Virus record (IMG/VR): IMGVR_UViG_3300042484_000262
Coordinates: 1-30,088 of that record
From: a virus
Strand: one strand, 5' to 3'
Length of the DNA stretch: 30,088 nt
The notes beneath the pieces were generated by a model. The model had not been told where the DNA came from, searched no databases, and saw nothing but the letters and a program-made list of their open reading frames with translations. The position numbers were made by a program, and so were the translations under genes. Below are positions 3,232-29,819 of the stretch, piece after piece. The stretch's first letter is position 1. Each line of letters opens with the position of its first letter.

Positions 3232-4302
3232 ATGACAAGCAAAGCCTGGAATCAATTTGTAAGTGGTGCAACTAATCCCCGCGGAAATGTGGGAGATTTT
3301 CAACATGCTTCACGGCTCCATGTAGACAGTGATTTAAGACTTGCTCCTAAGCAAAAGTTTTTATTTCATGTGGTGTTTAACATCAATACCAACGCATTAA
3401 AAAGTTTAAACTTTACCTATCAGCATAGAAACGAAATCAATATGCTGGTAAAGAAATGTGATCTTCCTAAGTTTACTATACAAACTGAAACACTAAATCA
3501 GTATAACAGGAAAAAAGTTGTACAAAATAAAATAGAATACCAACCTATTAATATTGCCTTTCATGATGACAATTTAGGTGTAGTTGGTCAGCTATGGCAA
3601 AATTATTTTGGTTACTACTATGGAGACAGTCAAGCTGCCAAAAATGGTACAGCCTATAACAGAAACGCCATGAAAGCTCCTGCTTTTATGAATTCTAGGT
3701 ACGGTCTAGATAACAACAGCAGTATGCCGTTTTTTAATGATATTACAATTTATCAGATGGCAAAAAAGGCTTGGTATAGTTACAAATTAGTAAATCCTAT
3801 TATCAAGAGTTGGAATCATGACGCTATGGACATGAGTTCAGGACAAAGTGCTGAACAATCCATGCAACTAGATTACGAAGCAGTTACCTATAACACAGGT
3901 TACGTGAGCCAAGGTAATCCTCCAGGATTTGGTGTCGAACATTATGACACTATGCCAAGTCCGTTAAGTATATACGGTGGCGGCACAAGAACACTGTTTG
4001 GTCAAGGTGGTTTCCTTGCTGGAGCCGAAGCAGTGTTTGGCGCATTAGGATCTGGCAAGGCATTTGACAGTCCGGCAAATTTTATAAGCACCGCTATCGC
4101 TGCAGTAAATACATATCAAAATGCCAAATCGTTAACATCAACAGGTGTAAGAAGTGAATTAACAGGCGCAGCCGTCCGCGGTCTTCAAAGTGCGGCTGTA
4201 ATAGGATTAAGTGGACAAAACACAATAAGTTTTCCTGTGAATAATCCATCAGCAACAACATCTGCTAAACCTATACAATTTGGTGGAGGCGGCGGACCAT
4301 AA
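3232..4302 (+). CDS. Tail-tube-like structural protein (gp19/gp54-type)
   Basis: A 356-residue virion protein with an N-terminal beta-rich part resembling tube proteins: KQKFLFHVVFNI near residues 42-53, then CDLPKFTIQTETLNQYNRK near residues 82-100, the position where tube proteins carry their conserved Pro and Tyr-Asn segment. The last third is Gly/Ala/Ser-rich and low in complexity, ending in FGGGGGP. Tube-fold paralogues in T4-like phages include the baseplate tube initiator gp54 and the cap protein gp48, so a tube-end or initiator role is plausible; which one is not decided. It opens a new transcription unit between the terminator at 3158 and a one-base (TAATG) overlap with the next gene. 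Confidence 0.6.
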   Translation: MTSKAWNQFVSGATNPRGNVGDFQHASRLHVDSDLRLAPKQKFLFHVVFNINTNALKSLNFTYQHRNEINMLVKKCDLPKFTIQTETLNQYNRKKVVQNKIEYQPINIAFHDDNLGVVGQLWQNYFGYYYGDSQAAKNGTAYNRNAMKAPAFMNSRYGLDNNSSMPFFNDITIYQMAKKAWYSYKLVNPIIKSWNHDAMDMSSGQSAEQSMQLDYEAVTYNTGYVSQGNPPGFGVEHYDTMPSPLSIYGGGTRTLFGQGGFLAGAEAVFGALGSGKAFDSPANFISTAIAAVNTYQNAKSLTSTGVRSELTGAAVRGLQSAAVIGLSGQNTISFPVNNPSATTSAKPIQFGGGGGP

Positions 4303-8887: not shown

Positions 8888-10978
8888 ATGAACAAGAATC
8901 TAAGCAACATTGCTGAAGAACTATTTGGAAAAATTAGAACACAATTTCCCAAAGTAAAACTTCGCGACGAAGATCGTAACACAACGGATGAACCTGAATT
9001 AGCAAGATTTTTTAATTTTGATTACCATCATAATCGAGTTCCATTAGGAGCTATCGATATAAGTATTTCAGAAAAAGACGGTCTCGTAATAATTTACTCC
9101 AACGATATTGTGGAAGAAAAAGATGAATTTGTAAAAAATAAATTTTACAATTTCCTTCAAGAATTACGAGAATTTGCCAAACAACGCCTGATGAATTTTG
9201 ATACTAGGGATATTTCTAAAAGCAATCTAGATAAAAGAGACTACGAATTCATGTCTAAAAAGAACAACGGAGAAGACACTATGTCTGAAAGTAAATTATA
9301 TGGCACTAGCAAAACTAGCTATCAGCAATTAGGCGATGCTAAGTTAATTGTTAAACATAGTGCCCCAGTCAATTTTGAGAACCCGGCAGGTCGCGCTCAA
9401 CGTATTGAAAGCATCTATATTGAAAATGCTCAAGGCGAAAGATTTAAGTATCCTTTCAAACATTTAAATGGTGCTAGAGCATTGGCTACACACGTAGCGC
9501 ACGGCGGAACTCCATACGATTCCATTGGCGGACATGTGATTGGTCTTAGCGAAGAATTAAGCAATCTGCGAATGTTTAAACATTATGTTTCTAGAAATCC
9601 CATGGTCAGCGAAGCAATGGGTAGCATACATACCAAAGTGATGGAACGGATTGACGCTGTTAAAAAAGAAATTCATGGTTTACAAAGTGCTACTCGTTAC
9701 GTTGAATTTGCTGAAAATTTTCATGCTATCGATGCTAAAGAGATTCCAGAAGATGTGATGAATGATTGGATAGATAGATTGACTATTCGTACATTCAATG
9801 AAGAACTTAAAAATGTATTCCCTTATATCTTTAAATTGATAGATGAGGGTGACATTCCTGTTAAGGAATTATCAGCAGATGATTTATTGGCAGAACGTGT
9901 TTCACCGGAGTGGCTTGAAGTAAATCGCAAAGCAAAAGAATTATTAGCCAAAGGCATGACTGTTGAGCAAGTTGCTAAAGAACTAGGAGTTCAAGGTCCA
10001 AACAACGGTATGGCAGGTAGTATGGGCGGTTTGTGGGGAGCAATCAATTCCGCTCAGCGAGAAATTGGCGGACAAATAAAAGAATTTGCCGACTACGAAA
10101 GACAACTCAATCATATTATAGGCGAGCGTGTTGATATTTTTAGTGATGATGAGAACAGCAAACGAGAAGCTGTAGAAAAATTAAATCAACTAGTGGCACA
10201 ACCGATGCCTGTGGGCACTGACGGAAGTAATGCTGTTGAAAGTCTTTCTGATATTATCGACGATGACGAACTAACAGATGTTTTCAAAGAGCTTGCTGAT
10301 ATCGATCCCGAACATGATGTAAGAGATATCCTCAAAGATTACATCAAAATTAAAGACCAAGAAAACGGCACAGATATTTTGACACAGATCCAATTTCCTG
10401 CTGACGATGGCGGCATGGACGCGGCACCGGCATCACCCGAACCGGAAGCGGCCGCACCGGAAGCACCGACAGCTGAACCTGTACCTGCTGAACCAGCGCC
10501 GGTAGCACCTCCAATGGCAGAAGAGAAAGAAGAAGATCCACCATTCGATGGACCTTATAAAAAGTCAAGTGACAACAAAGATCAATTTGGTAACACTGTT
10601 AAGACTAAAAATATGGCCAAACATCTTGCTAAAAAAGGTATGGCTGACGCAATTAAAAAAGCCAAAAAGGCAGGCGCAACTGCAGAAACGATTATTCGAA
10701 TTGCCGGTAAAGAAATGACATTGGGCGAAGCAATCACTAAAGCAGGAATGAAAGTCGAAGACGTGTTTGGAAACAAAGCAGATGAGTTAATCGAATTTGT
10801 TAAGAGTATGTACAATACTGTTGAAGGAAATTTTCCAAAAGGAGCAGAAGGTGTAAAAATTGCTTGCGAAAAGAAATTTGGTGATAATGCCGGACCTATT
10901 GCTGAAAAAGTAATTGCTAAATTGAGCAGTCTCGGCGAAATGAATCGTATGAAGCAACTGGCAGGATTGGCAAGATAA
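8888..10978 (+). CDS. Large internal/head-type virion protein, unknown
   Basis: A 696-residue protein with no enzyme motif that I recognise. It appears multi-domain: an alpha/beta N-terminal part (1-120), then a segment starting MSESKLYGTSKTS near residue 131 with AGRAQRIESIYIENAQGER and ATHVAHGGTPYDSIGGHV (about 180-245). A helical middle follows, then a Pro/Ala/Glu linker (about 515-550, repeated EPEAAAPEAP-type units) and a Lys-rich helical C-terminus ending in EMNRMKQLAGL. The xxLAGL ending is common at termini of marine phage head proteins and may be a maturation or assembly signal. Its position after gp17 and its single late promoter suggest a head or internal protein, made late. Uncharacterised in what I know. 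Confidence 0.65.
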   Translation: MNKNLSNIAEELFGKIRTQFPKVKLRDEDRNTTDEPELARFFNFDYHHNRVPLGAIDISISEKDGLVIIYSNDIVEEKDEFVKNKFYNFLQELREFAKQRLMNFDTRDISKSNLDKRDYEFMSKKNNGEDTMSESKLYGTSKTSYQQLGDAKLIVKHSAPVNFENPAGRAQRIESIYIENAQGERFKYPFKHLNGARALATHVAHGGTPYDSIGGHVIGLSEELSNLRMFKHYVSRNPMVSEAMGSIHTKVMERIDAVKKEIHGLQSATRYVEFAENFHAIDAKEIPEDVMNDWIDRLTIRTFNEELKNVFPYIFKLIDEGDIPVKELSADDLLAERVSPEWLEVNRKAKELLAKGMTVEQVAKELGVQGPNNGMAGSMGGLWGAINSAQREIGGQIKEFADYERQLNHIIGERVDIFSDDENSKREAVEKLNQLVAQPMPVGTDGSNAVESLSDIIDDDELTDVFKELADIDPEHDVRDILKDYIKIKDQENGTDILTQIQFPADDGGMDAAPASPEPEAAAPEAPTAEPVPAEPAPVAPPMAEEKEEDPPFDGPYKKSSDNKDQFGNTVKTKNMAKHLAKKGMADAIKKAKKAGATAETIIRIAGKEMTLGEAITKAGMKVEDVFGNKADELIEFVKSMYNTVEGNFPKGAEGVKIACEKKFGDNAGPIAEKVIAKLSSLGEMNRMKQLAGLAR

Positions 10979-13956: not shown

Positions 13957-13985
13957 TTGACATTATTACAAACGTATGTTATAAT
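13957..13985 (+). promoter_or_regulatory. Consensus sigma70 promoter, leaderless geometry
   Basis: TTGACA (13957-13962), 17-bp spacer, TATAAT (13980-13985): a full match to the bacterial vegetative consensus. It fills the 34-base gap between genes. The ATG at 13991 is 5 bases after the -10 box, so transcription should start within the first codons (ATGATG). No Shine-Dalgarno sequence is possible in the transcript. Confidence 0.85.
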
Positions 13986-13990
13986 TTACT

Positions 13991-15166
13991 ATGATGACTG
14001 TCGATGCTTTACTAGTACACCTTTTTAACAATGCTTTTTTGACTGAAAAAGTATTTCCTTCAAAAGACAAGAGAATATTACTGAGTTTATCTCAACAACT
14101 GACACAAAGTACCTTTTTGACCGAGAGTCAATCGAAATTATTGACTAAAATCTTCAAAGAAAATACGACACACCTAGAAGGCATCGTTGGCAACATCCAC
14201 AATGTGCTTGATAACAATTTATGGTCTGAACCTTTTAGAGTAATTCAAAAAATTCGTAAAATTTACATAGATTCCGAAGATTCAGAAGCCCTCATCATCG
14301 AGTTTACCTATGACAAGAGACTTCGTAACAAACTCACCGGTCTTAACAACCGACTACAAGGACCATTATCCACTCACGGGACTAGACATTTTTCAGTGGC
14401 ACTTACCGAAAAAAACATTCATTTACTAGTAGGTGAATTTCTTCGAGAAAATTTCGAAATTGACGGGAAAATTATGAAATTTTATGAAGACATCGATAGC
14501 ATATTAACAACCTCCAAAATCAATTTTGCCATAGGCAACACAACTAATGAAAATTTAAAAAAACTACTAGAGAGTGATATTGGACCACTTGTTGACAATA
14601 ACGTGCTATTACTTAATGACCGTAAAATCCGATATCAGTACGAAATCTATGAAAAAACACCGAATATTTCATTGACCACTGCTATCGCCCAACGACCAGC
14701 TACTAATATTTTTATCAACAGTTTATCGCATACTCTAGTAGATGTGGTTGACAGTTTAAAAAGTCTTAATAGACTGCCGTTGCTAGTAATTTTTGACGGA
14801 CACGACTCTGCTGTGAACAAAAAAACACTAAATTTGCTCTCGGACGCATTAAAAACCAACGGTGTCGATGACCACATTGGAATTTATTTCAGATTTAATC
14901 AAGGCAATGATCCAGCTGGGTTTAACAAAATCATTTCCGAATTGGGGTACAATAAAAATCTTTCAAACCAATCACAGGTGGCTGGTATTGCCGCAGGAAA
15001 GTTACCTAAATTCTTCATTAAAGACAAATGGAAGCCTAAAAGTGTGATATCGTTTACAACAAGTTTTAGAAATAGTAAAAGTTATGTTTACTGTAACGAC
15101 GTTGATCTAATTATATATTATGGGGATAAGAAGCCCATTCAAGGAAATGTTGATGTCATCGTGTAA
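13991..15166 (+). CDS. Unknown protein encoded before uvsW
   Basis: A 391-residue protein that I do not recognise. It looks like a mixed alpha/beta protein without transmembrane segments or a P-loop. It has a His/Thr-containing stretch (LSTHGTRHFSVAL near 125), a strand followed by an acidic turn (LLVIFDGHDSA near 262) and a C-terminal beta-rich end (SVISFTTSFRNSKSYVYCN, then DLIIYYGDKKP). The late beta segments recall the second half of helicase-like folds, but no catalytic motif is present. It begins leaderless from the consensus promoter at 13957 and overlaps uvsW by 14 bases, so the two are co-transcribed. A DNA-metabolism role is inferred from context. Confidence 0.7.
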   Translation: MMTVDALLVHLFNNAFLTEKVFPSKDKRILLSLSQQLTQSTFLTESQSKLLTKIFKENTTHLEGIVGNIHNVLDNNLWSEPFRVIQKIRKIYIDSEDSEALIIEFTYDKRLRNKLTGLNNRLQGPLSTHGTRHFSVALTEKNIHLLVGEFLRENFEIDGKIMKFYEDIDSILTTSKINFAIGNTTNENLKKLLESDIGPLVDNNVLLLNDRKIRYQYEIYEKTPNISLTTAIAQRPATNIFINSLSHTLVDVVDSLKSLNRLPLLVIFDGHDSAVNKKTLNLLSDALKTNGVDDHIGIYFRFNQGNDPAGFNKIISELGYNKNLSNQSQVAGIAAGKLPKFFIKDKWKPKSVISFTTSFRNSKSYVYCNDVDLIIYYGDKKPIQGNVDVIV

Positions 15167-16619
15167 GCTGATAATTAAAGATGAAGTTAACATAAAGATA
15201 GAAGGTCTCAGTGTGGAAATGCGTAGAAAACTATCTAACGCATTCAAGTACGATATTCCTTATGCCAAGTATCATCCTGCTTACAAGCTAGGCAGATGGG
15301 ATGGTCAAGTAACATTGTTTGGCATCGGTGGCACCGGTTACATCAATCAGTTACCAAAGATATTAAGTCTATTAGATAGCTCAGGAGTCGACGTTTCTTC
15401 TATAGAAGATTTAAGACAACCCACAAATCTATCGTTCTCTAAAGTAACAGAATCCTACTGGGCCGACCAAGGAAAAACTTGGCCTAAAGGTCATCAGCAA
15501 CAAGGTCAACCTATTATGTTGCGCGACTATCAAGTAGATACTATTAATAACTTTCTTGAGAATCCGCAAAGTTTACAAGAAGTGGCCACAGGCGCTGGTA
15601 AAACAATTACCACAGCCACGTTAGCACAGTTATGCGAACCGTTAGGACGAACGATTACTATTGTACCTAATAAGAGTCTTGTTGAACAAACAGAAGAAGA
15701 TTTTATTAACGTAGATCTTGACGTGGGTGTTTACTACGGTGATCGTAAAGATCTAAATAAAACACACACTATTTGTACATGGCAAAGTCTTAACATACTA
15801 GATAAGAAAAGTAAAAACTTAGAACATGACATTGTGTCACTTGCTGAATTTTTAGAAGGCGTGTCTTGCGTAATCGTTGATGAAGTACACATGGCAAAAG
15901 CTGAAGTATTAAAGAATTTGCTTACACAAAATCTTGCTAACGCACCAGTACGTTGGGGTCTAACGGGTACAGTGCCCAAGGAAGCATTTGAATACGAAAG
16001 TATTTTTGCCAGTATTGGTCCTGTAATCGGCGGCATTAAAGCACACGAATTACAGGAAAAAGGTGTACTGAGCAATTGTCACGTTAACATTGCTCAGTTG
16101 ATAGATTTACCTGAATTTAAAACCTACGCAGAAGAATTAAAATACTTGGTTACCGATGATGATAGAATGGCTTATATCAGTAAAATGATCAAAGGTATAG
16201 CCGACAACGGCAACACGTTGGTGCTTGTTAATAGAATCGATACTGGAAAATTCATAGTTAACGAGCTAGCTGACAGTGTTTTTATTTCTGGTGAGGTTAA
16301 GACTAAAGATAGAAAAGAAGAATACGATGACGTTAAAACTAGTACTAATAAGATTATTGTGGCGACTTACGGTGTGGCCGCTGTGGGTATTAATATCCCC
16401 CGTATTTTTAATTTGGTTCTTCTGGAGCCCGGAAAGAGCTTTGTCCGCGTTATACAAAGTATTGGGCGAGGCATTAGAAAAGCAGACGACAAGGACTTTG
16501 TCCAAATCTGGGACATTACCTCGACGTCTAAATACGCAAAGCGGCATCTTACGGCACGGAAGAAATTCTACAAAGAAGCCAAGTATCCATTTACTCTAGA
16601 CAAAATAGATTGGAATTAA
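15153..16619 (+). CDS. uvsW: UvsW, SF2 helicase
   Basis: DNA helicase that regresses forks and unwinds R-loops and branched DNA, linking recombination to origin shut-off in T4. The 488 residues show an N-terminal UvsW-type domain (YHPAYKLGRWDGQVTLF), Q-motif region LRDYQVD, Walker A TGAGKT (146-151), DEVH box (243-246), motif III GLTGT, motif V/VI region with SIGRGIRKAD near 434. The start at 15153 is chosen because AAGGA lies 7 bases upstream; the in-frame ATG at 15120 has no such site. It overlaps the previous gene by 14 bases. Confidence 0.93.
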   Translation: MSSCKLIIKDEVNIKIEGLSVEMRRKLSNAFKYDIPYAKYHPAYKLGRWDGQVTLFGIGGTGYINQLPKILSLLDSSGVDVSSIEDLRQPTNLSFSKVTESYWADQGKTWPKGHQQQGQPIMLRDYQVDTINNFLENPQSLQEVATGAGKTITTATLAQLCEPLGRTITIVPNKSLVEQTEEDFINVDLDVGVYYGDRKDLNKTHTICTWQSLNILDKKSKNLEHDIVSLAEFLEGVSCVIVDEVHMAKAEVLKNLLTQNLANAPVRWGLTGTVPKEAFEYESIFASIGPVIGGIKAHELQEKGVLSNCHVNIAQLIDLPEFKTYAEELKYLVTDDDRMAYISKMIKGIADNGNTLVLVNRIDTGKFIVNELADSVFISGEVKTKDRKEEYDDVKTSTNKIIVATYGVAAVGINIPRIFNLVLLEPGKSFVRVIQSIGRGIRKADDKDFVQIWDITSTSKYAKRHLTARKKFYKEAKYPFTLDKIDWN

Positions 16620-16622
16620 AGG

Positions 16623-16651
16623 TTGACAACATTACCTAAATGTTGTATTAT
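16623..16651 (+). promoter_or_regulatory. Sigma70 promoter, leaderless geometry
   Basis: TTGACA (16623-16628), 17-bp spacer, TATTAT (16646-16651), then 6 bases (AACAAC) and the ATG at 16658. The expected +1 is the A of that ATG. It starts 3 bases after the uvsW stop. Confidence 0.8.
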
Positions 16652-16657
16652 AACAAC

Positions 16658-17164
16658 ATGCAAATACTTACATTAGACAATTTATCATACGACCTTAATA
16701 ACCTACCCGAAGAAGTAGATGAAAGTATGAGGTTCGCGGTTTTAGACAACAGTGATCCTAAAGAACCAGATTTTTTCTTCATGCCGTTAATTTTCTTAGA
16801 AAGTTTTAATAGCCCAGCAATGGTACTTAAAATAGGCGACGAGGAAGTTACTATGCCTTTAGATTGGAGCATAGCAGTGGGCGATCCGCAAAGCAGTTGT
16901 GATATAGAAATACTGCCGCTTACTAGTTTAAACGACCGCGGCTTCGAAGCATTATGTTTTAATCCACTCAGTAGTTTTAGAGTAGAGTTTAAAAAAATTG
17001 AAATTGTAAATTTTTATAATGATGTTAAATGGTACTTTCCTAAAATGAAAAATGGACAATTACTAGCAGTACCGCTTGGACAAGAACCTAAACCCTTATG
17101 TTCTTATTTTGTTAAAGAAATTTCGAGACAGATGGAACTAATTGATTTAAGCAAAATATTATAA
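16658..17164 (+). CDS. Conserved marine T4-like protein of unknown function
   Basis: A 168-residue protein with strands and aromatic residues but no enzyme motif: MRFAVLDNS, then FFFMPLIFLESFNSPA near 36-51, MPLDWSIAVGDP near 65, and LTSLNDRGFEALCFNPLS near 84-101. I recall very similar proteins beside uvsW in cyanophages, always unassigned. The start at 16658 fits the promoter geometry; an in-frame ATG at 16640 lies inside the promoter spacer and could not be on the transcript. It heads a run of tightly packed genes (16658-19504) whose junctions are a few bases or overlaps. Confidence 0.75.
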   Translation: MQILTLDNLSYDLNNLPEEVDESMRFAVLDNSDPKEPDFFFMPLIFLESFNSPAMVLKIGDEEVTMPLDWSIAVGDPQSSCDIEILPLTSLNDRGFEALCFNPLSSFRVEFKKIEIVNFYNDVKWYFPKMKNGQLLAVPLGQEPKPLCSYFVKEISRQMELIDLSKIL

Positions 17165-17165
17165 T

Positions 17166-17444
17166 ATGGGATCTCTTAAGCCTGGCGCCACATACATATA
17201 CGAACGCAACGGGGACACTGTGTATGCTAGAGAACACGGTGCTGACTCAAGTACCCGACAAGAAATTGGCTGGGATCATACGCCAGACCCTCGTACCGGT
17301 GACGGCAGATCGTTACATGAACATATGATGGAAAGTAAAATGTGGGGTGAAATTCGCCGAATGGCTCCATCCAATCCAGCTTTACAAAAGGCCTTGGATC
17401 GTGCTATAATGATATATAGATTAAGCAAGGACAAACCATTATGA
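17166..17444 (+). CDS. Small conserved phage protein, unknown
   Basis: A 92-residue protein with an N-terminal beta turn-rich part (GATYIYERNGDTVYAREHG) and a helical end (MWGEIRRMAPSNPALQKAL, residues 58-76). It begins one base after the preceding stop with no clear Shine-Dalgarno sequence, so it is probably coupled. It overlaps the next gene by four bases (ATGA). Similar proteins with a DHTPDPR-type centre are widespread in T4-like phages (recalled); no function is known to me. Confidence 0.75.
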   Translation: MGSLKPGATYIYERNGDTVYAREHGADSSTRQEIGWDHTPDPRTGDGRSLHEHMMESKMWGEIRRMAPSNPALQKALDRAIMIYRLSKDKPL

Positions 17445-17746
17445 GTAAAGAAGAAGACAAATTCAAACATAGTAAACGCCTGCTCAAAGACGATAACGCT
17501 ATCAAGAAACAAATGAAGATAGCTAAAGAACATAAGGTCATTGAGTTTAATCCTAAACTAGCACAACCACATAGATACCATAAACATCATGTAATGAATT
17601 GTGGAAACCCTGATTGTTTTATGTGTGCTAATCCCAGAAAGACGTGGAACGAATTAACTATCCAAGAAAAGCGAGAATTCCAAGAACTGGAAACTATTCG
17701 TATGCGACACAGTAATGGAACTTTAACGAAAGATGCTGATGAGTGA
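17441..17746 (+). CDS. Small Cys/His-rich protein, possible metal-binding site
   Basis: A 101-residue, basic N-terminus followed by a His-rich stretch (HRYHKHH, residues 44-50) and C54-x4-C59-x2-C62 in MNCGNPDCFMCANPRKTW. The three Cys with nearby His suggest a small zinc site. The C-terminus is helical (QEKREFQELETIRMRH). It overlaps both neighbours. Proteins with the same NCGNPDCFMC core occur in many phages and some bacteria (recalled), with no assigned role. Confidence 0.75.
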   Translation: MSKEEDKFKHSKRLLKDDNAIKKQMKIAKEHKVIEFNPKLAQPHRYHKHHVMNCGNPDCFMCANPRKTWNELTIQEKREFQELETIRMRHSNGTLTKDADE

Positions 17747-18209
17747 GAAAATTGAACTAAAAGAAAAAATGGCCGCTGCCGACATGGGTGCCCGCACAAT
17801 GTGGGACGAAATGGACGACCTTCAAAGAAAAAGTCTTAAACAAGAGTTCTTTATTCTCAATCGATACATTAGTAATGTTAAAGGTCAACCTAGAGATACA
17901 CAAGAACATTTTGTTCTTACTGTTAATGAATACTTTAACAAATACTGGTATGATTTACAAAATCATCCTAAGTTAATGTGGCAGTTACTTAGCATGTGCG
18001 CCCATGAAAGCAAAAAGATATTCTATCACGAATGGATTGGATTCAAAAAGAAAAAAGATAACAAGCGTATTAAGTTTTTAAATTTAGTATATCCTGATAT
18101 GAAAGATGACGAAATCGAATTATTGGCAAAACTATCGGAGTTATCAGAGTTAAAAGCTATGGCAGAGGATCTCGGTTATAGCAAAGAAGAAATTGCTAAA
18201 TTATTTTAA
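17733..18209 (+). CDS. Clamp-loader small subunit gp62-like
   Basis: In T4, gp62 with four gp44 subunits loads the gp45 sliding clamp. This 158-residue helical protein has landmarks I associate with phage clamp-loader A subunits: W-x-E-M-D near residue 24 followed by FFILNRYIS, a central MWQLLSMCAHESKKIFYHEW segment (about 82-101), KKKKDNKRIKFLN, and the C-terminus in which helices end with YSKEEIAKLF. T4 gp62 is 187 residues. It overlaps both neighbours and lies in the uvsW-primase block, so replication is a fitting context. No gp44 gene is in the window. The start may be this ATG or the one at 17739. Confidence 0.5.
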   Translation: MLMSEKIELKEKMAAADMGARTMWDEMDDLQRKSLKQEFFILNRYISNVKGQPRDTQEHFVLTVNEYFNKYWYDLQNHPKLMWQLLSMCAHESKKIFYHEWIGFKKKKDNKRIKFLNLVYPDMKDDEIELLAKLSELSELKAMAEDLGYSKEEIAKLF

Positions 18210-18907
18210 TGTTAAGTTTCGGCGTGAACAATAAACCTTATACCTGTCAATTTTGTGGGCATGGATACACTCAGGAAAAAACACTGGCTGTACACATGTG
18301 CGAGCAGAAACGCAGGCATTTGTCCAAAGATGAAAAACATGTTGTTATAGGCTATCAAACGTATGTTAGATTTTATCAGTTAACACAAAACGCCAAAACT
18401 ATAAAAACATACAACGAATTTTCTCGAAGCCCATATTACAATGCATTTGTAAAATTTGGCAGTTATGTCAGTAACGTAAATCCCTTGTACCCCGACCATT
18501 ATATTGATTGGGTAGTACGTAGTGGTGTCAAACTAGATCATTGGTGTAGAGACGCATTATACGAAAAATATGTATTAGAGTTAATTCATACAGAACAAGT
18601 AGAAACAGCATTAAACAGAAGTGTAACTCATATGCAGTCGTGGGCCAACGACAACAACAGTATATGGAGTCACTATTTTAAATATGTTAGCGTAAATAGA
18701 GCAACATATGATATACGAGATGGTAAAGTTAGCCCGTGGTTAATATTGAATTGTACTACTGGAAAACACTTACTAACATCACTTAGTGACGAGCAGTTGG
18801 CTTCGATAAGTAATGTTATAGATCCTACTGTATGGGTTAAGAAATTTAAAAAACAACGAGCAGATCTTGAACTTGTTAAAGAAGTAGTTAAAGAGTCTAA
18901 CTTATGA
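18209..18907 (+). CDS. Zinc-finger protein of replication block
   Basis: A 232-residue protein whose N-terminus carries a classical finger-like motif: C13-x2-C16-x12-H29-x-C31 with H37 nearby (YTCQFCGHGYTQEKTLAVHM). The rest is helical and rich in aromatic residues (YQTYVRFYQL, YIDWVVRSG, TVWVKKFKKQ) with no enzyme motif. The finger suggests nucleic-acid or protein binding. The start codon overlaps the stop of the gp62-like gene (TAATG). Marine T4-like phages often place such a gene just before the PolIII-alpha-like gene (recalled), so the two may act together; that is inference. Confidence 0.7.
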   Translation: MLSFGVNNKPYTCQFCGHGYTQEKTLAVHMCEQKRRHLSKDEKHVVIGYQTYVRFYQLTQNAKTIKTYNEFSRSPYYNAFVKFGSYVSNVNPLYPDHYIDWVVRSGVKLDHWCRDALYEKYVLELIHTEQVETALNRSVTHMQSWANDNNSIWSHYFKYVSVNRATYDIRDGKVSPWLILNCTTGKHLLTSLSDEQLASISNVIDPTVWVKKFKKQRADLELVKEVVKESNL

Positions 18908-18925
18908 ATCAGAGACAAAACACTA

Positions 18926-19504
18926 ATGCCAGATATAGACATTGATTTTTTAGACCGCAGCCAGGCCCTTGATGTTATAAAACACATCAAAGCAAGTCGA
19001 CGAGACGAATCTAAACTAGTAACACATAATACTGGCATCTACTTACAGACAATTCCTTGCGATCCTGTAAATAACTTATCAGGCATAGATTACAAAGAGG
19101 CAGAAGAACGAGGCTACTTTAAAATAGACTTTTTGAATGTTAACATTTATAAGGGTATCAGAGATGAGGCACATCTCACCCAACTTATGGAGACTGAACC
19201 ACTATGGGACCTTTTAGAGCAGGACGATTTCAGCAGTTTACTTTTTCACGTCAACGGCCACGGGGCAATACTACGACAGATGAAGCCGACGAGCATACTC
19301 CAACTAGCGGCAGTTTTGGCTATGATAAGACCCGCCAAGAGACACTTGATTGGGACAGATTGGACGACAGTGATGATGACTATTTGGACAAAGCCCGAGG
19401 ATGGTGAGTACTATTTTAAGAAGGCGCATGCCATTGCGTATGCAATGGCAATAGCGGTACAGATGAATTTAATATGTGAACAGATTAGTTATGGATATAG
19501 TTAA
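18926..19504 (+). CDS. Miniature DNA polymerase III alpha-like protein
   Basis: Only 192 residues, yet it carries in correct order the active-site landmarks of bacterial replicative polymerase DnaE: PDIDIDF (2-8), equivalent to the PDFDVDF strand with the first two catalytic Asp; HNTGIYL (34-40), like the HAGG motif; GYFKIDFLNV (63-72), equivalent to KFDFLGL with the third catalytic Asp; a LAMIRPAK segment (131-138), like the ALYRPGP motif; and FKKAHAIAYA (164-173), like FNKSHSAAYA. PHP, thumb, beta-binding and OB parts are absent. DnaE is about 1160 residues. T4-like phages use a family B polymerase, so the role here is unclear. The start at 18926 has a poor ribosome binding site; the frame is blocked by TGA at 18905. 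Confidence 0.75.
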   Translation: MPDIDIDFLDRSQALDVIKHIKASRRDESKLVTHNTGIYLQTIPCDPVNNLSGIDYKEAEERGYFKIDFLNVNIYKGIRDEAHLTQLMETEPLWDLLEQDDFSSLLFHVNGHGAILRQMKPTSILQLAAVLAMIRPAKRHLIGTDWTTVMMTIWTKPEDGEYYFKKAHAIAYAMAIAVQMNLICEQISYGYS

Positions 19505-19881
19505 CGACTTGGTGGTTTTCTAACTAATTGAACACTCCTTCGTTTTATTCGTTTGAGTGTTAAATTCATTAGATTGACCACTGGCCCGAGTACTACTCTC
19601 ACATCCTTGCTGTTGAATGTTTTTATGCTATATTTAAAAGGTTCAATTTCTTTACGAAGAAATATAGTTATAGGAATTTGACGATTTGATTCCCACCACC
19701 AAACTTCTCCAAGTTCCAATAATAGAGTCTTTTCATCAGGAGTTTTAATAGACTCTAGGTCGTAAAAACTCGTAACAAACTGATCTTGATTGATGATGAT
19801 TCCCACATATTCCAGCTCACCGTAATTTAATACGCTGATAAAGGGTAATTGATTCTCTATGTTATCTCTAAGTTTAACCAT
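19501..19881 (-). CDS. Conserved small phage protein, unknown
   Basis: A 126-residue protein on the opposite strand to its neighbours. It has a beta-rich N-terminal half (FISVLNYGELEYVGIIINQ), an acidic-aromatic centre (LGEVWWWESNRQIPITIFL, residues 56-74), and a basic C-terminus (LKRIKRRSVQLVRK). The centre suggests a structural or assembly role, but I know no function; similar proteins occur in cyanophages (recalled). It overlaps the PolIII-alpha-like gene by 4 bases tail to tail. Its ATG touches the plus-strand late promoter at 19881, and there is no Shine-Dalgarno sequence. A weak promoter (TTGCAT, 18 bp, TACTAT) could read into it. Confidence 0.75.
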   Translation of the reverse strand: MVKLRDNIENQLPFISVLNYGELEYVGIIINQDQFVTSFYDLESIKTPDEKTLLLELGEVWWWESNRQIPITIFLRKEIEPFKYSIKTFNSKDVRVVLGPVVNLMNLTLKRIKRRSVQLVRKPPSR

Positions 19882-19888
19882 ATAAATA
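19881..19888 (+). promoter_or_regulatory. T4-type late promoter (exact TATAAATA)
   Basis: Exact match to the T4 late consensus, 21 bases before the ATG at 19910. Expected initiation near 19894 gives a short leader containing AAGGA. This is a leadered counterpart to the leaderless boxes elsewhere. Confidence 0.7.
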
Positions 19889-19909
19889 GTAGTAAGGACT
19901 TTTAGCCAA

Positions 19910-20737
19910 ATGCAAAAAATTTCAAGTTATTTATATCCAAACCGAATAAACATCGTCGCGGATGTGACTCTATTTCCTGTAAGGTGGAACATTGTGTATC
20001 AAAATCGTATAAAACTTTATCAAGGCGTTGACAACGTACTTACCTTGGATGTAAAAAATTCGGATCAAAAACGGATAGATCTCGACGAGCTATTAGGTGT
20101 AGGTGAATCTATTAGAATGAGTATTCAAGATGTCATGGGAAAAGAATTTCTAGTAGCCACTGTCACCCCTAGTGCTACCAAAGGCCTGGCAACAGTTAAT
20201 ATTCAAGAAACTGATCTAGTCAATTTAGATCCGCAATTTTTAAATTTTACAATTTATAAAATCAACTCAGATACGTCTAAAACTGTGTTTTATGCGGATA
20301 CACAATTTGGCGTTAAAGGCAATATGGAATTAGTTGGAAGTGCTATGGGCACTGATACTGAGCCACGTTACATTACTAGATTTGCTCCTATCACAGTTAC
20401 AGATCCACAACCAAAAATAATTACTTATTATAGTGATGCTGTGGAAATTCGTCAGCCAAACTACCTAGATGCAGCAGTCAACGACAGCGTAGAACTTGAT
20501 TTTATATTCGACGGGTTGGCTGGTTCAATCACAGTAGAGTATACTGAGGACGCCGTAGTAAGTTCAAATACTTTGTGGACTACGTTAGAAACATTCGCAG
20601 TGACCACTGCTACAACAGCTATTACAAAAACATACGATAATCCGGAATATAATAGAGATGCCAATTGGTTACGTGTCAAATATGTTCGAACAACTAATAA
20701 TGTCGGAAACATTGACAAGATAACAATTAGATTGTAA
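19910..20737 (+). CDS. Virion structural protein (baseplate/fibre-associated type)
   Basis: A 275-residue, beta-rich protein, poor in Cys, with tandem beta-sandwich character. The start MQKISSYLYPNRINIVADV and the segment IKLYQGVDNVLTLDVKNSDQ (about 34-53) are typical of marine myovirus structural proteins and resemble the N-terminal domain of baseplate upper proteins. A second domain with many Thr/Val (about 175-275) ends in NWLRVKYVRTTNNVGNIDK. The late promoter TATAAATA just upstream fits a virion protein, although it is embedded in the replication region. Exact position in the particle is unknown. Confidence 0.7.
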   Translation: MQKISSYLYPNRINIVADVTLFPVRWNIVYQNRIKLYQGVDNVLTLDVKNSDQKRIDLDELLGVGESIRMSIQDVMGKEFLVATVTPSATKGLATVNIQETDLVNLDPQFLNFTIYKINSDTSKTVFYADTQFGVKGNMELVGSAMGTDTEPRYITRFAPITVTDPQPKIITYYSDAVEIRQPNYLDAAVNDSVELDFIFDGLAGSITVEYTEDAVVSSNTLWTTLETFAVTTATTAITKTYDNPEYNRDANWLRVKYVRTTNNVGNIDKITIRL

Positions 20738-20740
20738 AAT
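20712..20740 (+). promoter_or_regulatory. Sigma70 promoter, leaderless geometry, for primase
   Basis: TTGACA (20712-20717), 17-bp spacer, TAAAAT (20735-20740), then 6 bases (TAGTCT) to the ATG at 20747. The -10 box contains the stop codon of the structural gene (20735-20737). Expected +1 is the A of the ATG. Confidence 0.8.
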
Positions 20741-20746
20741 TAGTCT

Positions 20747-21724
20747 ATGAGCCTTATCATAGACACAGTAACATCTTACCTACCTCCCAAGAGAAAAGCA
20801 ACCCCCAGCGGGTGGATTAGCTTTAATGCTATCTGCTGTCATCACAATGGATCTAGCTTCGATACTAGGGGTCGAGGCGGCATAATGATAACTGAAGGCG
20901 TAAGCTATCATTGTTTTAATTGCGGTTTCAAAGCAAGTTGGCAACCTGGTAGAAAGATTTCAATTAAATTTAAAAGACTGTTACAGTGGCTCAATGTGGC
21001 AGATGATTTAATTACAAAATGTAGTTTAGAAGCACTAAGACTAAACGAAGATCCTGCTTATAAGGGAACAGTTAACGTCATTCCTACTTTTATAGATAAA
21101 GCAATGCCCTTGGGCTCAAAGCCCATACTGTCTTGGTTAGATAGTGATCCAGAAGAACTACGACCCGTTTTAGAATATATGTATTCACGAGGTTTTACTG
21201 TAGACGATTACCCGTGGCACTGGACTGATGAAGATGGGTTTCAAAACAGATTAATTGTGCCATTTTATTACCAAGGTAGACTTGTGGGTTATACCTCCAG
21301 ATCGATACGAGATAGTAAAGTCAAATACATTAGTGAACAGCAACCTGGTTATGTGTTTAATTTAGACCGACAAGACTATGCTCGTAAATTTACTATAGTA
21401 ACAGAAGGACCGCTAGATGCTATCTGTGTGGATGGTTGTGCTGTAATGAGTAACGAAGTGGGCCCGCAACAAATAGCACTATTAAATCAACTACAGCGAG
21501 AAATAGTAGTTGTACCGGACAGAGATCAGGCAGGATTAAAAATGGCAGAACAGGCGATTGAATTGGGATGGAGTGTTAGCATGCCTGATTGGCCCGAAGG
21601 TGTTAAAGATGTGAATGATTCTGTGAGACTTTACGGAAAGCTATATACTCTGTGGAGCATAGCAAGTAGTAAAGAATCTATGCCTTTAAAAATACAACTA
21701 AGGATGAAAAAATGGCTTGGCTAA
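20747..21724 (+). CDS. gp61: DNA primase gp61
   Basis: Makes RNA primers for lagging-strand synthesis with helicase gp41. The 325 residues (T4: 342) have an N-terminal zinc-binding region with C31-x-H33 (ICCHHNGSS) and C56-x2-C59 (YHCFNCGFK), then the catalytic TOPRIM-type core with E220 in VTEGPLDAI and PDRDQAG (257-263), the metal-binding Asp pair. A GRLVGYTSRSI strand near 177 precedes it. It starts leaderless from the promoter at 20712 and overlaps the next small gene by 13 bases. Confidence 0.93.
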   Translation: MSLIIDTVTSYLPPKRKATPSGWISFNAICCHHNGSSFDTRGRGGIMITEGVSYHCFNCGFKASWQPGRKISIKFKRLLQWLNVADDLITKCSLEALRLNEDPAYKGTVNVIPTFIDKAMPLGSKPILSWLDSDPEELRPVLEYMYSRGFTVDDYPWHWTDEDGFQNRLIVPFYYQGRLVGYTSRSIRDSKVKYISEQQPGYVFNLDRQDYARKFTIVTEGPLDAICVDGCAVMSNEVGPQQIALLNQLQREIVVVPDRDQAGLKMAEQAIELGWSVSMPDWPEGVKDVNDSVRLYGKLYTLWSIASSKESMPLKIQLRMKKWLG

Positions 21725-21813
21725 AAAATATATACTATAATATAAAAGATTATTTTGAATTACGTAAACGCCGCAAGGAACTACGGAAAAAAGATCCGTA
21801 TATTTACAAATGA
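21712..21813 (+). CDS. 33-residue conserved-type small protein
   Basis: A complete small reading frame starting ATG-GCT-TGG with a GGATG-type binding site (AAGGATGAAAAA) upstream, inside the primase end. The product starts MAWLKNIYYNIKDYF and continues with a highly basic stretch (LRKRRKELRKKDP) and the ending YIYK. It overlaps the primase by 13 bases and the next gene by four (ATGA), filling an otherwise 85-base gap exactly. An amphipathic, basic helix is expected; membrane or nucleic-acid contact is possible. I recall similar short proteins ending in KDPFIYK in marine T4-like phages, which supports reality. Confidence 0.7.
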   Translation: MAWLKNIYYNIKDYFELRKRRKELRKKDPYIYK

Positions 21814-22760
21814 TACAGTGGGGCATAAACGCTCTTAATCACGGCAGTAGTCTTGCTGTGTTTCACAACGATCAACTGATAGATAATAGCGTTGATAAGA
21901 CTCGTGATAATCCACACAAACTAATAAGTGACGCTATGTTCACCGGTTGGGAACCAGATCGTATTTTCTGGTATGAAAATCCCTGGGTCAAGAAAGCTAG
22001 ACAAATATATGCTAAACAATATAGTACAGCATTTAGATTAGACAATCTGCCCAGTCGTCATCTTAAAAAATGGGGTTTGGGAAATATACCAGTTACGTAT
22101 ACTCCGCATCATGCTAGTCATGCTGCCGCTGGATATTATACTAGTCCCTTTAATCACTGTGCTGTTGTGGTACTAGATGCTATAGGAGAATTCGAATGTG
22201 CTACAATCTGGGAAGCACGTCACGGCAAAATGAAAAAAGTATGGAGTGCGAGATATCCACATAGTTTGGGTCTGTTCTATAGTGCCTTTACAAAAATGCT
22301 GGGTCTTGAACCTATACGTGACGAATACCTATTACAGCAGATGGCAAAACAAGGTGATCCTAAAAGATTTCGAAATGATCTGAGTTTATATTTTAAATCA
22401 GGACCGGTGGTGTTAGACTATAATTTTCACCGAGGAGTATTGAATTGGAGTCCGGAACCTATACGTATTCAAGAACAATGCGATATTGCGGCCGCGGTAC
22501 AGGAACGATTTGAACTGGAAATTTACAAAGTTATGTATAGGGCTAAAACATTAACCAATGCCGATTGCCTCGTTTATATGGGCGGGTGTGCCATGAACAG
22601 TGATGCTAACAAACGCTTTGTAGAACCCGAATTTAAATATATTTGGAGTTTGCCTAATCCTGGAGATCCAAGTAGTAGTATGGGTGCTGTACTGTATCAT
22701 ACTCAACAACGAATAACAAAAGACTGGGCACCAGTCAAACATATTGCTATTAAAATTTAA
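21810..22760 (+). CDS. Carbamoyltransferase-like protein (Kae1-type domain only)
   Basis: Matches the N-terminal, Kae1-like half of NodU/TobZ/HypF-type carbamoyltransferases, which bind ATP and iron and move a carbamoyl group to an acceptor. Visible landmarks: GINALNHGSSLAVF at the N-terminus (nucleotide-fold start), H100-H101-x2-H104 in PHHASHAAAGYY (metal site), VLDAIGE (122-128, the usual DGxGE position), SLGLFYSAFTKMLGL near 151-165, YMGGCAMN near 255 and NPGDPSSSMGAVLYH near 281. The family is usually near 570 residues; this protein is 316 and lacks the YrdC-like C-terminal domain. It lies between primase and helicase, so a nucleotide or DNA-modifying role is possible but unproven. Confidence 0.8.
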   Translation: MIQWGINALNHGSSLAVFHNDQLIDNSVDKTRDNPHKLISDAMFTGWEPDRIFWYENPWVKKARQIYAKQYSTAFRLDNLPSRHLKKWGLGNIPVTYTPHHASHAAAGYYTSPFNHCAVVVLDAIGEFECATIWEARHGKMKKVWSARYPHSLGLFYSAFTKMLGLEPIRDEYLLQQMAKQGDPKRFRNDLSLYFKSGPVVLDYNFHRGVLNWSPEPIRIQEQCDIAAAVQERFELEIYKVMYRAKTLTNADCLVYMGGCAMNSDANKRFVEPEFKYIWSLPNPGDPSSSMGAVLYHTQQRITKDWAPVKHIAIKI

Positions 22761-22772
22761 AGAGTGTATAAT
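22744..22772 (+). promoter_or_regulatory. Sigma70 promoter, leaderless geometry, for helicase
   Basis: TTGCTA (22744-22749, 4 of 6 consensus bases), 17-bp spacer, TATAAT (22767-22772), then 6 bases (ATATAA) to the ATG at 22779. Expected +1 is the A of the ATG. No Shine-Dalgarno sequence lies upstream within reach. Confidence 0.75.
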
Positions 22773-22778
22773 ATATAA

Positions 22779-24260
22779 ATGACAACAAGACAAAACGCAG
22801 ATTACGGATACGACATCCAGAAATTATATTTAGAAATGATGCTGGCAGATGCTGAAACATTTGTTCGCTGCCAAGGCATTTGGGATAGCACTCTGTTTGA
22901 TAGAAAACTACAAGGCGTGGCAAAATTCCTAAAAGACTACGTGGATGACCATAACATTATTCCCACAGTGGACATTGTTAACGCCGCCACACAACAGGAG
23001 TTCAAGATACCTGACGGTCTTCAAGAAGCACACTTTGATTGGCTACTTGCCGATTTTGAAACCTTTATCAAACATAAAGGTCTGGAGAAAGCCATTCTTG
23101 AAAGTGCCGACTTGCTGGAGAAAGGCGAATACGGCCCAGTTGAAGAACTTATCAAACGAGCAGTACAAATTGGCCTACAGAAGGACATGGGTACAGATTA
23201 CTTTCTAGATCCCCGTGCTAGATTGATGCGTATCAAGGACAAGAATGGACAGATTAGTACAGGCTGGGAAGCAGTAGATCAGAAACTCTTTGGTGGGTTT
23301 AATCGCGGAGAACTCAACATCTTTGCTGGCGGTAGCGGAGCAGGTAAGAGTTTGTTTTTGGCCAACCTTGGTGTAAATTACGCACTCGCCGGGCTTAATG
23401 TAATTTATCTCACACTGGAACTCAGTGAAGAGCTTGTGAGTATGCGTGTGGACAGTATGATAACAGGAATCCCCACTAGAGAAATCTTTCGTCAAATAGA
23501 CGACGTTGAAATGAAGGTTAGAGTTATTGGCAAAAAGAGTGGACACCTACAGGTCAAATATATGCCGAGCGGCAAAACAGCCAATGATGTACGTGCCTAT
23601 TTGAAAGAGTATGAAGTCAAAATGGGACATAAATGCGATGTACTATTGGTGGACTATATGGACTTGTTAATGCCCTTGAGCAAGAAGATTAGTGCTGAAA
23701 ACTTGTTTGTTAAAGACAAGTATGTCAGTGAAGAACTACGTAACCTAGCAGTGGAAAAGAACTGTGTGTTTGTCACTGCGGCACAGTTGAATCGTGGTGC
23801 GGTAGAAGAAATTGAATTTGACCACAGTCACATTAGTGGTGGCTTAAGCAAGATTCAGACTGCGGATAACGTGTTCGGTATCTTTACATCGAGAGCTATG
23901 CGTGATCGCGGCAAATATCAAATCCAGTTAATGAAGACACGTAGTAGCAGTGGTGTGGGACAGAAAATTGATTTAAACTTTGATGTGGACACATTGCGCA
24001 TTACTAACAGTGAAGAACAAAGTGAAGACTCGGCGCAGTCTACCACACGTAGCAGTCAGATTCTCACTGATATCAAACGTAACAGCACCGTGAGTGAATT
24101 CCAAAAAGGTCAGCCTAAAGAAGGATTTGATCCTTTTAACCCTAGTCCCAACGCGGGCCGCAGTGACCCTACAGAAGGCATGATTGTCAAACCCAGTGCC
24201 GCCAAGGTGGAAAGCACCAAACTGCGTCAGCTGTTGAACAACTTGCCCCAAGATGTCTAA
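22779..24260 (+). CDS. gp41: Replicative DNA helicase gp41 (DnaB-type)
   Basis: Hexameric 5'-3' helicase of the replisome, working with primase gp61. The 493 residues have a helical N-terminal domain (1-135), a linker, and a RecA-type motor: GGFNRGELNIFAGGSGAGKS with Walker A at 184-191, catalytic Glu in LTLELSEELV (about 211-220), Walker B VLLVDYMDLL (about 287-296), and ISGGLSKIQTADNV and MKTRSSSGVGQ segments near the arginine finger region. A Ser/Pro/Asn-rich tail of about 70 residues follows and ends in KLRQLLNNLPQDV. T4 gp41 is 475. It overlaps the convergent GNAT gene by 4 bases. Confidence 0.94.
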   Translation: MTTRQNADYGYDIQKLYLEMMLADAETFVRCQGIWDSTLFDRKLQGVAKFLKDYVDDHNIIPTVDIVNAATQQEFKIPDGLQEAHFDWLLADFETFIKHKGLEKAILESADLLEKGEYGPVEELIKRAVQIGLQKDMGTDYFLDPRARLMRIKDKNGQISTGWEAVDQKLFGGFNRGELNIFAGGSGAGKSLFLANLGVNYALAGLNVIYLTLELSEELVSMRVDSMITGIPTREIFRQIDDVEMKVRVIGKKSGHLQVKYMPSGKTANDVRAYLKEYEVKMGHKCDVLLVDYMDLLMPLSKKISAENLFVKDKYVSEELRNLAVEKNCVFVTAAQLNRGAVEEIEFDHSHISGGLSKIQTADNVFGIFTSRAMRDRGKYQIQLMKTRSSSGVGQKIDLNFDVDTLRITNSEEQSEDSAQSTTRSSQILTDIKRNSTVSEFQKGQPKEGFDPFNPSPNAGRSDPTEGMIVKPSAAKVESTKLRQLLNNLPQDV

Positions 24261-29428: not shown

Positions 29429-29457
29429 TGTTCGCTCCAATCGTGTTTAAAACAGTA

Positions 29458-29486: not shown

Positions 29487-29760
29487 CCATTTTGGACAAC
29501 ATGTTGGCGGGCACTCTCCATGCGCCCTGTGCTGTACGCACAGTTACATATTTAATGGCAATCTTCTCCACACGGCCCTGTAGGGTCATGCCAGTCTTTG
29601 AGCTGGTAAACTTGACGCTGTCACCAACCCGCAAGGTGTACTTGGCCAGCTGTGTCAGTCGGCTACGGGCAAACTTAACAGCATCAATCACGCTGACCAG
29701 CTCATCATTGGTAAGACCACCTTGGATGATAGCTGTGTTAATCTCTTGTATAGTACGCAT
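29467..29760 (-). CDS. Small basic protein with SH3-like/KOW-like C-terminus
   Basis: A 97-residue protein with a helical N-terminal half (EINTAIIQGGLTNDELVSVI) and a beta-rich C-terminal half, YTLRVGDSVKFTSSKTGMTL followed by GRVEKIAIKYVTVRTAQGAW and RVPANML. The latter resembles a small SH3/KOW barrel that could bind nucleic acid or protein. I recall similar proteins in pelagiphages, function unknown. AGGAG stands 7 bases before the ATG; a full-consensus promoter lies upstream. It precedes the AAA+ gene on the same strand. Confidence 0.7.
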   Translation of the reverse strand: MRTIQEINTAIIQGGLTNDELVSVIDAVKFARSRLTQLAKYTLRVGDSVKFTSSKTGMTLQGRVEKIAIKYVTVRTAQGAWRVPANMLSKMDDLVAA

Positions 29761-29790
29761 AGGTCGCTCCTGTGTGTTGTTTAAGTGTTT

Positions 29791-29819
29791 ATTATAACAC
29801 GTTTAGACCCAGCTGTCAA
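29791..29819 (-). promoter_or_regulatory. Full-consensus sigma70 promoter
   Basis: Minus strand TTGACA (29819-29814), 17 bp, TATAAT (29796-29791). Expected initiation near 29784 gives a 24-base leader with AGGAG for the gene at 29760. Unlike the plus-strand sigma70 promoters here, this one makes a leadered mRNA. Confidence 0.85.

Follow-up and report, generated by a model that had tools for sequence, protein, structure and literature searches.

In the current study, we characterized four sigma70-type promoters that adjoin start codons in a 30,088-nucleotide stretch of viral DNA (IMG/VR record IMGVR_UViG_3300042484_000262, positions 1 to 30,088; hereafter, the window). Split into two adjoining pieces, the window matches part of the IMG/VR contig G001 (383,411 bases) at 100% identity. 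It is jumbo phage DNA, and in a search of annotated phages the best matches to its UvsW-like helicase were jumbo phage proteins, with identities of 53.6% to Sinorhizobium phage Phosso, 52.0% to Agrobacterium phage Atu_ph07, 51.0% to Pseudomonas phage PA5oct and 46.1% to Escherichia phage 121Q. The first-pass annotation of the window had described four sigma70 promoters with spacers of 17 base pairs (bp), ending 5, 6, 6 and 6 nucleotides (nt) before the ATGs at 13991, 16658, 20747 and 22779, and all of them are present as placed. Sites 1 to 3 were read directly and their -10 positions recomputed; site 4 was read directly and seen again in a second reading. The sites, the genes that they head and the neighbouring genes of the block are as follows.

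Site 1, plus strand: TTGACA 13957-13962, 17 bp, TATAAT 13980-13985, 5 nt, ATG 13991
13991..15166, plus strand: gene 13991, without a PHROG match; a fast-evolving protein with orthologues down to 23% identity, whose ATG adjoins the promoter
Site 2, plus strand: TTGACA 16623-16628, 17 bp, TATTAT 16646-16651, 6 nt, ATG 16658
16658..17164, plus strand: gene 16658 (phrog_11279)
Site 3, plus strand: TTGACA 20712-20717, 17 bp, TAAAAT 20735-20740, 6 nt, ATG 20747
20747..21724, plus strand: DNA primase (phrog_47, E 3.5e-40)
Site 4, plus strand: TTGCTA 22744-22749, 17 bp, TATAAT 22767-22772, 6 nt, ATG 22779
22779..24260, plus strand: DnaB-like replicative helicase (phrog_19, E 2e-68)
15120..16619, plus strand: UvsW-like DNA helicase (phrog_16, E 6.6e-77), without a promoter of its own at its start
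18926..19504, plus strand: DNA polymerase-type gene (phrog_11778, E 2.5e-67), called PolIII-like in the first-pass annotation, without a leaderless promoter
21810-22760: carbamoyltransferase-like gene (phrog_1601), between primase and helicase

The four sites agree with the sigma70 consensus in spacer (17 bp throughout) and in sequence (0, 1, 1 and 2 mismatches), the -35 of site 4, TTGCTA, being weak with two mismatches. Their -10 boxes end 5-6 nt before the ATG in all four cases, as in leaderless (TA-led) genes, whose -10 box lies about 10-12 bp before the start. None of the four is a T4-type late promoter, the -10 boxes being TATAAT, TATTAT, TAAAAT and TATAAT, each with a -35, and TAAATA occurring at none. 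By eye, the place of the Shine-Dalgarno (SD) sequence holds none of the four SD tetramers in any of the four genes. The usual spacing from a sigma70 -10 box to +1 puts the transcription start at about the A of the ATG. We consider it very likely, on the strength of sequence comparisons, that these ATG-adjoining promoters direct leaderless initiation, and that the lineage to which the window belongs uses two discrete promoter layouts.

The start region of each gene has its own detail. Site 1 is followed by ATGATG, so that 13994 is a second candidate start, and for gene 13991, N-terminal peptides such as MTTVDNLL start at ATG 13991. For gene 16658, a mechanical list of open reading frames (ORFs) puts the start at 16640, within the promoter spacer of site 2. 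At site 3, the end of the upstream ORF contains the -35, the spacer and part of the -10.

Two promoter layouts in the lineage

The lineage was sampled with six related uncultured contigs, including G001, and the site counts take in the window's own sites. A gene caller blind to upstream signals omitted the boxes of gene 13991 and of the primase, and the counts therefore use caller-free distances: a strong bipartite site was defined by at most one mismatch per box and a spacer of 16-18, and its distance was taken to the next ATG opening at least 40 codons. The distances of the 842 such sites were two-peaked: a short class of 54 sites lay at 5-7 nt, 30 of these at 6, and a long class of 157 lay at 20-40 nt with its peak near 30, while the interval of 8-19 nt between them had 32. 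With a reversed motif of the same composition, there were 686 sites, of which 5 fell in the short class (Fisher P 7e-10) and 57 at 20-40 nt. A spacer of 17 dominates, occurring in 43 of the 58 sites at 4-8 nt, and the 54 short-class sites are spread over 37 protein families. The repeat on other loci gave 120/852 vs. 6/558 for the reversed motif, a biased comparison in that the loci were fetched around uvsW and helicase.

Circular shifts of the sites led to the same result. In G001, with the window included, 19 sites have the ATG of an ORF of 40 codons or more 5-7 nt away, vs. a mean of 3.06 and a maximum of 9 in 200 shifts. Across the six contigs, the observed numbers were 19, 10, 12, 10, 3 and 2 vs. 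shift means of 0.8-3.1; none of the 200 shifts reached the number observed in the first four contigs, unlike in the last two. Promoters thus occur at gene starts above chance.

The short class is also specific in its start codon. Counted on 736 sites under a slightly narrower site rule, ATG opening an ORF of at least 40 codons occurs 56 times at 5-7 nt vs. a mean of 3.08 per position at 8-19 nt, while GTG (4), TTG (4) and CTG (3) stay near their own backgrounds. A preference for AUG is known for leaderless initiation (PMC3616915 and PMC9031893, as excerpted). In the six contigs, the short class has an SD-like tetramer at 1 of its 54 starts, as compared to 113 of 157 for the long class.

The leadered class is represented in the window and just beyond it.

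17381..17443, plus strand: leadered site in the same block, TTTACA-18-TATAAT, 30 nt before ATG 17441, with AAGGA between
29760..29819, minus strand: leadered site, TTGACA-17-TATAAT, 30 nt, AGGAG, ATG 29760
Gene listed at 29440, minus strand: ATGACT-17-TATAAT, with GGAG before an ATG 29 nt past the box
Third right-edge gene, cut by the window, minus strand: in G001, TTGACA-17-TATAAT, with GGGAG before the ATG

The leadered sites include those of opposite-strand genes at and beyond the right edge of the window, which have an SD. The first-pass annotation had set the three minus-strand genes of this edge apart as having leaders with GGAG, and this was borne out for each (AGGAG, GGAG and GGGAG, the third read in G001). 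Near 130.9 kb of G001, a divergent gene pair (L168) has a palindromic sequence, TATTTATTAATAAATA, common to both genes; it lies 7 nt from the ATG on one side, while the other side has a leader and an SD.

The same division is found with the late-type box. Of the 1272 cases of TAAATA in the six contigs, 130 stand 4-7 nt upstream of an ATG and 253 stand 14-34 nt upstream; an SD tetramer accompanies 9 of the former and 151 of the latter. All 10 genomes searched encode a gp55-like late sigma. The lineage therefore has short and leadered forms of both promoter types, sigma70 and TAAATA, and the earlier proposal that late-type boxes share the ATG-adjoining layout is borne out in the six contigs. Within the window, late boxes lie 5, 5 and 4 nt before the ATGs at 3232, 8888 and 27840; the SD tetramer is absent at 3232 and 27840, and AGGA stands just upstream of the box at 8888.

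Conservation of promoter and start codon among orthologues

Orthologue loci were taken from two scans, the best 80 of about 600 in each. Rows were excluded if the alignment started past residue 25, if there was no nearby in-frame ATG, if they were in a minus frame or if they duplicated an identical upstream sequence. A box was scored when a -10 with at most one mismatch lay 5-7 nt from the ATG. Under this rule, the box was present in 47 of 54 distinct upstream regions for gene 13991, 65 of 77 for the primase and 50 of 67 for the helicase, while chance -10 matches farther upstream numbered 1.2-1.6 per position. Beside the box, a -35 (TTGACA at 16-18 bp, at most two mismatches) was found in 44/47, 59/65 and 34/50 orthologues, respectively. 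Gene 13991 is the most striking of the three, since its protein falls to 23% identity, yet the promoter, the distance and the ATG are kept. Six control genes of the same block had the box in only 9 of 381 orthologues (1/74, 1/93, 2/91, 3/59, 1/26 and 1/38). Orthologues of the DNA polymerase-type gene at 18926 showed the box in 2/91, and those of the UvsW-like helicase had an SD-like tetramer in 35/74.

The coding sequence behaves as if it began at the annotated ATG. Variability at third codon positions starts at codon 2, while upstream columns mostly hold 1.4-2.0 bits outside the boxes. Mean entropies by codon position were 0.94, 0.52 and 1.53 for the primase, a clear codon-type constraint, and the constraint was weaker for gene 13991 (1.37, 1.14 and 1.59) and for the helicase (0.98, 1.05 and 1.29). 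Judged by this pattern, the annotated ATG appears to be the real start, clearly for the primase and less so for gene 13991 and the helicase.

Whether -35, -10 and ATG are kept as one unit had been left by the first-pass annotation to comparison with orthologues, and the answer differs among the four genes. Gene 13991, primase and helicase keep the unit in most orthologues, which is the opposite of a conserved SD without a promoter. Gene 16658 does not, the promoter there being local: it occurs in 6 of 103 orthologues (one of these six sigma70 rows being without a -35), an SD tetramer in 48 and neither in 49, and the promoter at 16658 therefore looks like a recent gain. Four further rows for this gene had been labelled as late-type leaderless; they were rejected as a chance TAAATA at a stop codon, accompanied by an SD. 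The broader proposal, that leaderless initiation also serves replication genes through a promoter type other than the late boxes, is supported by the conserved unit, the excess over chance and the scarcity of SD sequences.

Probable leaderless initiation and alternative explanations

We strongly infer that the messages are leaderless, their 5′ ends being predicted from the layout to lie at the start codon. The host RNA polymerase with its main sigma factor would bind the boxes, and transcription would start at the A of the ATG or at most one base from it. The resulting mRNA would lack a leader, and its 5′-terminal AUG would be translated without an SD interaction. The lineage would use two layouts for both promoter types, one without a leader and one with a leader, of about 24 nt in the sigma70 type, that usually carries an SD. 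The leaderless sigma70 promoters sit in short gaps between genes and in many cases run into the end of the preceding gene, and by this route the primase, helicase, exonuclease and gene 13991 may gain a transcript of their own at little cost in DNA. The gap to the upstream stop has a median of 32 nt for leaderless sites vs. 66 nt for leadered ones, which fits the addition of a compact promoter inside a gene block.

Several observations weigh against this interpretation. Among the triplets at 5-7 nt, the non-start triplet ATA was also somewhat raised, with 22 vs. about 13 expected. The scarcity of SDs in the short class comes in part from the -10 box filling the SD place. Among ATGs that open ORFs of at least 100 codons, an SD was seen in 12 of the 156 with a -10-like box and no -35, as compared to 1256 of the 7076 others, and this control weakens SD absence alone as a mark of the leaderless class. 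The box was missed in 7/54 orthologues of gene 13991, 12/77 of the primase and 17/67 of the helicase, and neither box nor SD was seen in 6/7, 10/12 and 10/17 of these misses, respectively; some of the misses are near-boxes, e.g., TAAACT beside an intact TTGACA. The helicase -35 is weak, and by our own estimate, with three spacers allowed, the level of at most two mismatches seen in 34/50 is reached by chance in about a tenth of cases. The rarity of the promoter in front of gene 16658 belongs here as well, as do the two smallest contigs, G005 and G006, which taken singly lie within chance (3 vs. 0.76, with a shift maximum of 3, and 2 vs. 1.12, with a maximum of 4). Finally, the primase of PA5oct has this layout with a GTG start, an exception to ATG, and its deposited start (MK797984.1 145884-146912) is a GTG directly after the -10, 6 nt earlier; GTG is poorly used in leaderless translation in E. 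coli according to the excerpted text of a review (PMC9031893). The GTG 6 nt past the annotated start fits the promoter better.

Among other explanations, it is improbable, although the best of them, that the promoters are real and serve only downstream genes, the first ATG being translated from read-through RNA coupled to the upstream gene. The short gaps to the upstream stop are what such coupling calls for, and an mRNA from an upstream promoter would include these genes. The helicase orthologues that lie directly behind the primase, none of which has the box (0/7), must indeed depend on read-through. However, the helicase box is kept behind the carbamoyltransferase in 28/28 cases and behind other or unidentified genes in 22/32, and read-through leaves both the tight placement at 5-7 nt and the restriction to ATG among start codons unexplained. 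Considerably less probable still is the idea that the TATAAT-like stretch is an A+T-rich ribosome-standby or translation-enhancing element rather than a -10 box. The stretch does occupy the SD place and the regions are A+T-rich, but a standby element would not call for the TTGACA that accompanies the box at 16-18 bp in most orthologues, nor for the preference for a spacer of 17. The least credible account is that good promoter matches cluster by chance in phage DNA this rich in A+T and were noticed by a reader expecting them: a simple TATAAT-N4-7-ATG pattern without a -35 was not above its reversed control in eight whole contigs (a weak test, most ATGs being non-starts, which we replaced by the bipartite site with an ORF requirement) and G005 and G006 singly behave as chance would have it, but the reversed-motif and circular-shift controls, the conservation down to 23% identity and the recurrence at two of the same genes in PA5oct all speak against it.

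Cultured relatives and known systems

Promoter scans of cultured phages covered PA5oct, T4, Phosso, 121Q and Vibrio phage 2.275.O. The short class is rare among them: 2/173 sites in PA5oct, 1/73 in T4, 2/35 in Phosso (400 of 469 kb), 2/273 in 121Q and 0/93 in Vibrio phage 2.275.O. In Phosso, 121Q and the Vibrio phage, the primase and helicase starts shown lack the box and carry an SD tetramer; an SD tetramer is likewise found at the PA5oct helicase and an SD at the 121Q exonuclease. For gene 13991, the search of five cultured phages detected no orthologue. In PA5oct (MK797984), TTGACA-17-TATAAT stands 6 and 7 nt before the starts of the primase (EST35_0223) and the exonuclease (EST35_0240), which are orthologues of leaderless genes of the lineage (34% and 42% identical to their G001 counterparts). 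Of the two short-class sites of PA5oct, one starts the exonuclease and the other heads a 46-codon ORF; one further exact match to the pattern has no annotated gene. PA5oct thus resembles the lineage in having the same sigma70 layout at an orthologous primase and exonuclease. Unlike the lineage, with 2-18 sites per contig, it has the layout at only two annotated genes, one of them with GTG.

The distribution of initiation factor 3 (IF3) among these phages offers a possible, though doubtful, context. Of the five cultured relatives searched, four encode IF3_C (Phosso, Atu_ph07, 121Q and Vibrio phage 2.275.O). The fifth, PA5oct, gave no match, and neither did any of 22 uncultured lineage contigs, many of which are fragments. 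As excerpted, a review reports inhibition of model leaderless mRNAs in E. coli when IF3 is raised, stimulation when IF3 is low and, from one study, a requirement for IF3 (PMC9031893). It is conceivable, but rather unlikely, that the lineage moved part of its expression, early and late, to leaderless translation in connection with IF3, the phages that encode it being SD-led at these genes and the others leaderless. The link is suggestive only, given that the contigs include fragments, that the lineages are not independent, that trees leave PA5oct unplaced and that the pattern may reflect a single evolutionary event.

Other translation genes were considered as well. G001 carries 41 tRNA genes, a transfer-messenger RNA (tmRNA) and a bS21 gene (L166 18913-19159, L180 10145-18720; L181 10730-11135; L162 10739-11017). 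The phage bS21 was rejected as a cause of the leaderless layout because it is unspecific, being shared by G001-G003 with Phosso, PA5oct and the Vibrio phage. The three tRNA-Met genes of G001 were judged by eye against criteria for a phage initiator tRNA, and none showed the initiator-type GGG/CCC anticodon stem. The bS21 of G001 is nearest to those of Burkholderiales, at 45-53% identity, among the best 80 of 204 loci in a search that favours shared short peptides, and its tmRNA was printed in ARAGORN's starred form, which we take as permuted; the bS21 affinity and the tmRNA form are weak hints of the host.

Leaderless genes are a known class, and it seems that the lineage-wide, two-class layout and its gene-by-gene conservation in jumbo phages are new. 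The textbook leaderless case among phages is a single lambda gene. A search of titles and abstract beginnings in the open-licence literature found no report of leaderless promoters in this phage group, and a review of jumbo phages uses the word "leaderless" zero times (PMC13282480). The excerpted text of a paper on phage AR9 calls phage transcripts "often leaderless" (PMC5312081). In the present lineage, putative leaderless and leadered promoters stand side by side and the same replication genes stay leaderless, as far as their layout tells, over deep divergence, with two such genes in the cultured PA5oct. This raises the question of why a jumbo phage would forgo a ribosome-binding site on its primase. 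The layout may also aid gene finding, where the promoter itself could serve as a start signal in cases in which an SD-based search is expected to fail.

Several known systems share features with these promoters. In TA-led bacterial genes, a TANNNT motif lies about 12 bp before the start (PMC3160421, as excerpted), and the present sites are the same in -10 distance, in the lack of an SD and in their leaderless reading; they differ in belonging to jumbo phages, in having a near-consensus -35 and -10, in standing beside a second, leadered class and in being conserved gene by gene. T4-type late promoters, which are read with a gp55-type sigma, have a counterpart in the lineage's TAAATA boxes, including those 4-7 nt before ATGs, but the four sites described here are of the sigma70 type. 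In Sinorhizobium meliloti, 171 leaderless starts have been mapped, all of them AUG (PMC3616915, as excerpted). That bacterium shares with the lineage the exclusive use of AUG and a minority leaderless class beside leadered mRNAs, although its starts were measured and those of the phage are deduced here from DNA. Enterobacteria are described as having few leaderless mRNAs, which are common in some other bacteria (PMC9031893, as excerpted), and phage lambda is where leaderless initiation was discovered (PMC3160421, likewise). Lambda offers a phage precedent in the cI mRNA, from a maintenance gene of a temperate phage, which like the messages proposed here begins at an AUG and is made by the host RNA polymerase. 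In lambda a single maintenance gene is concerned, whereas the layout described here extends to 37 protein families in six contigs, several of them replication genes.

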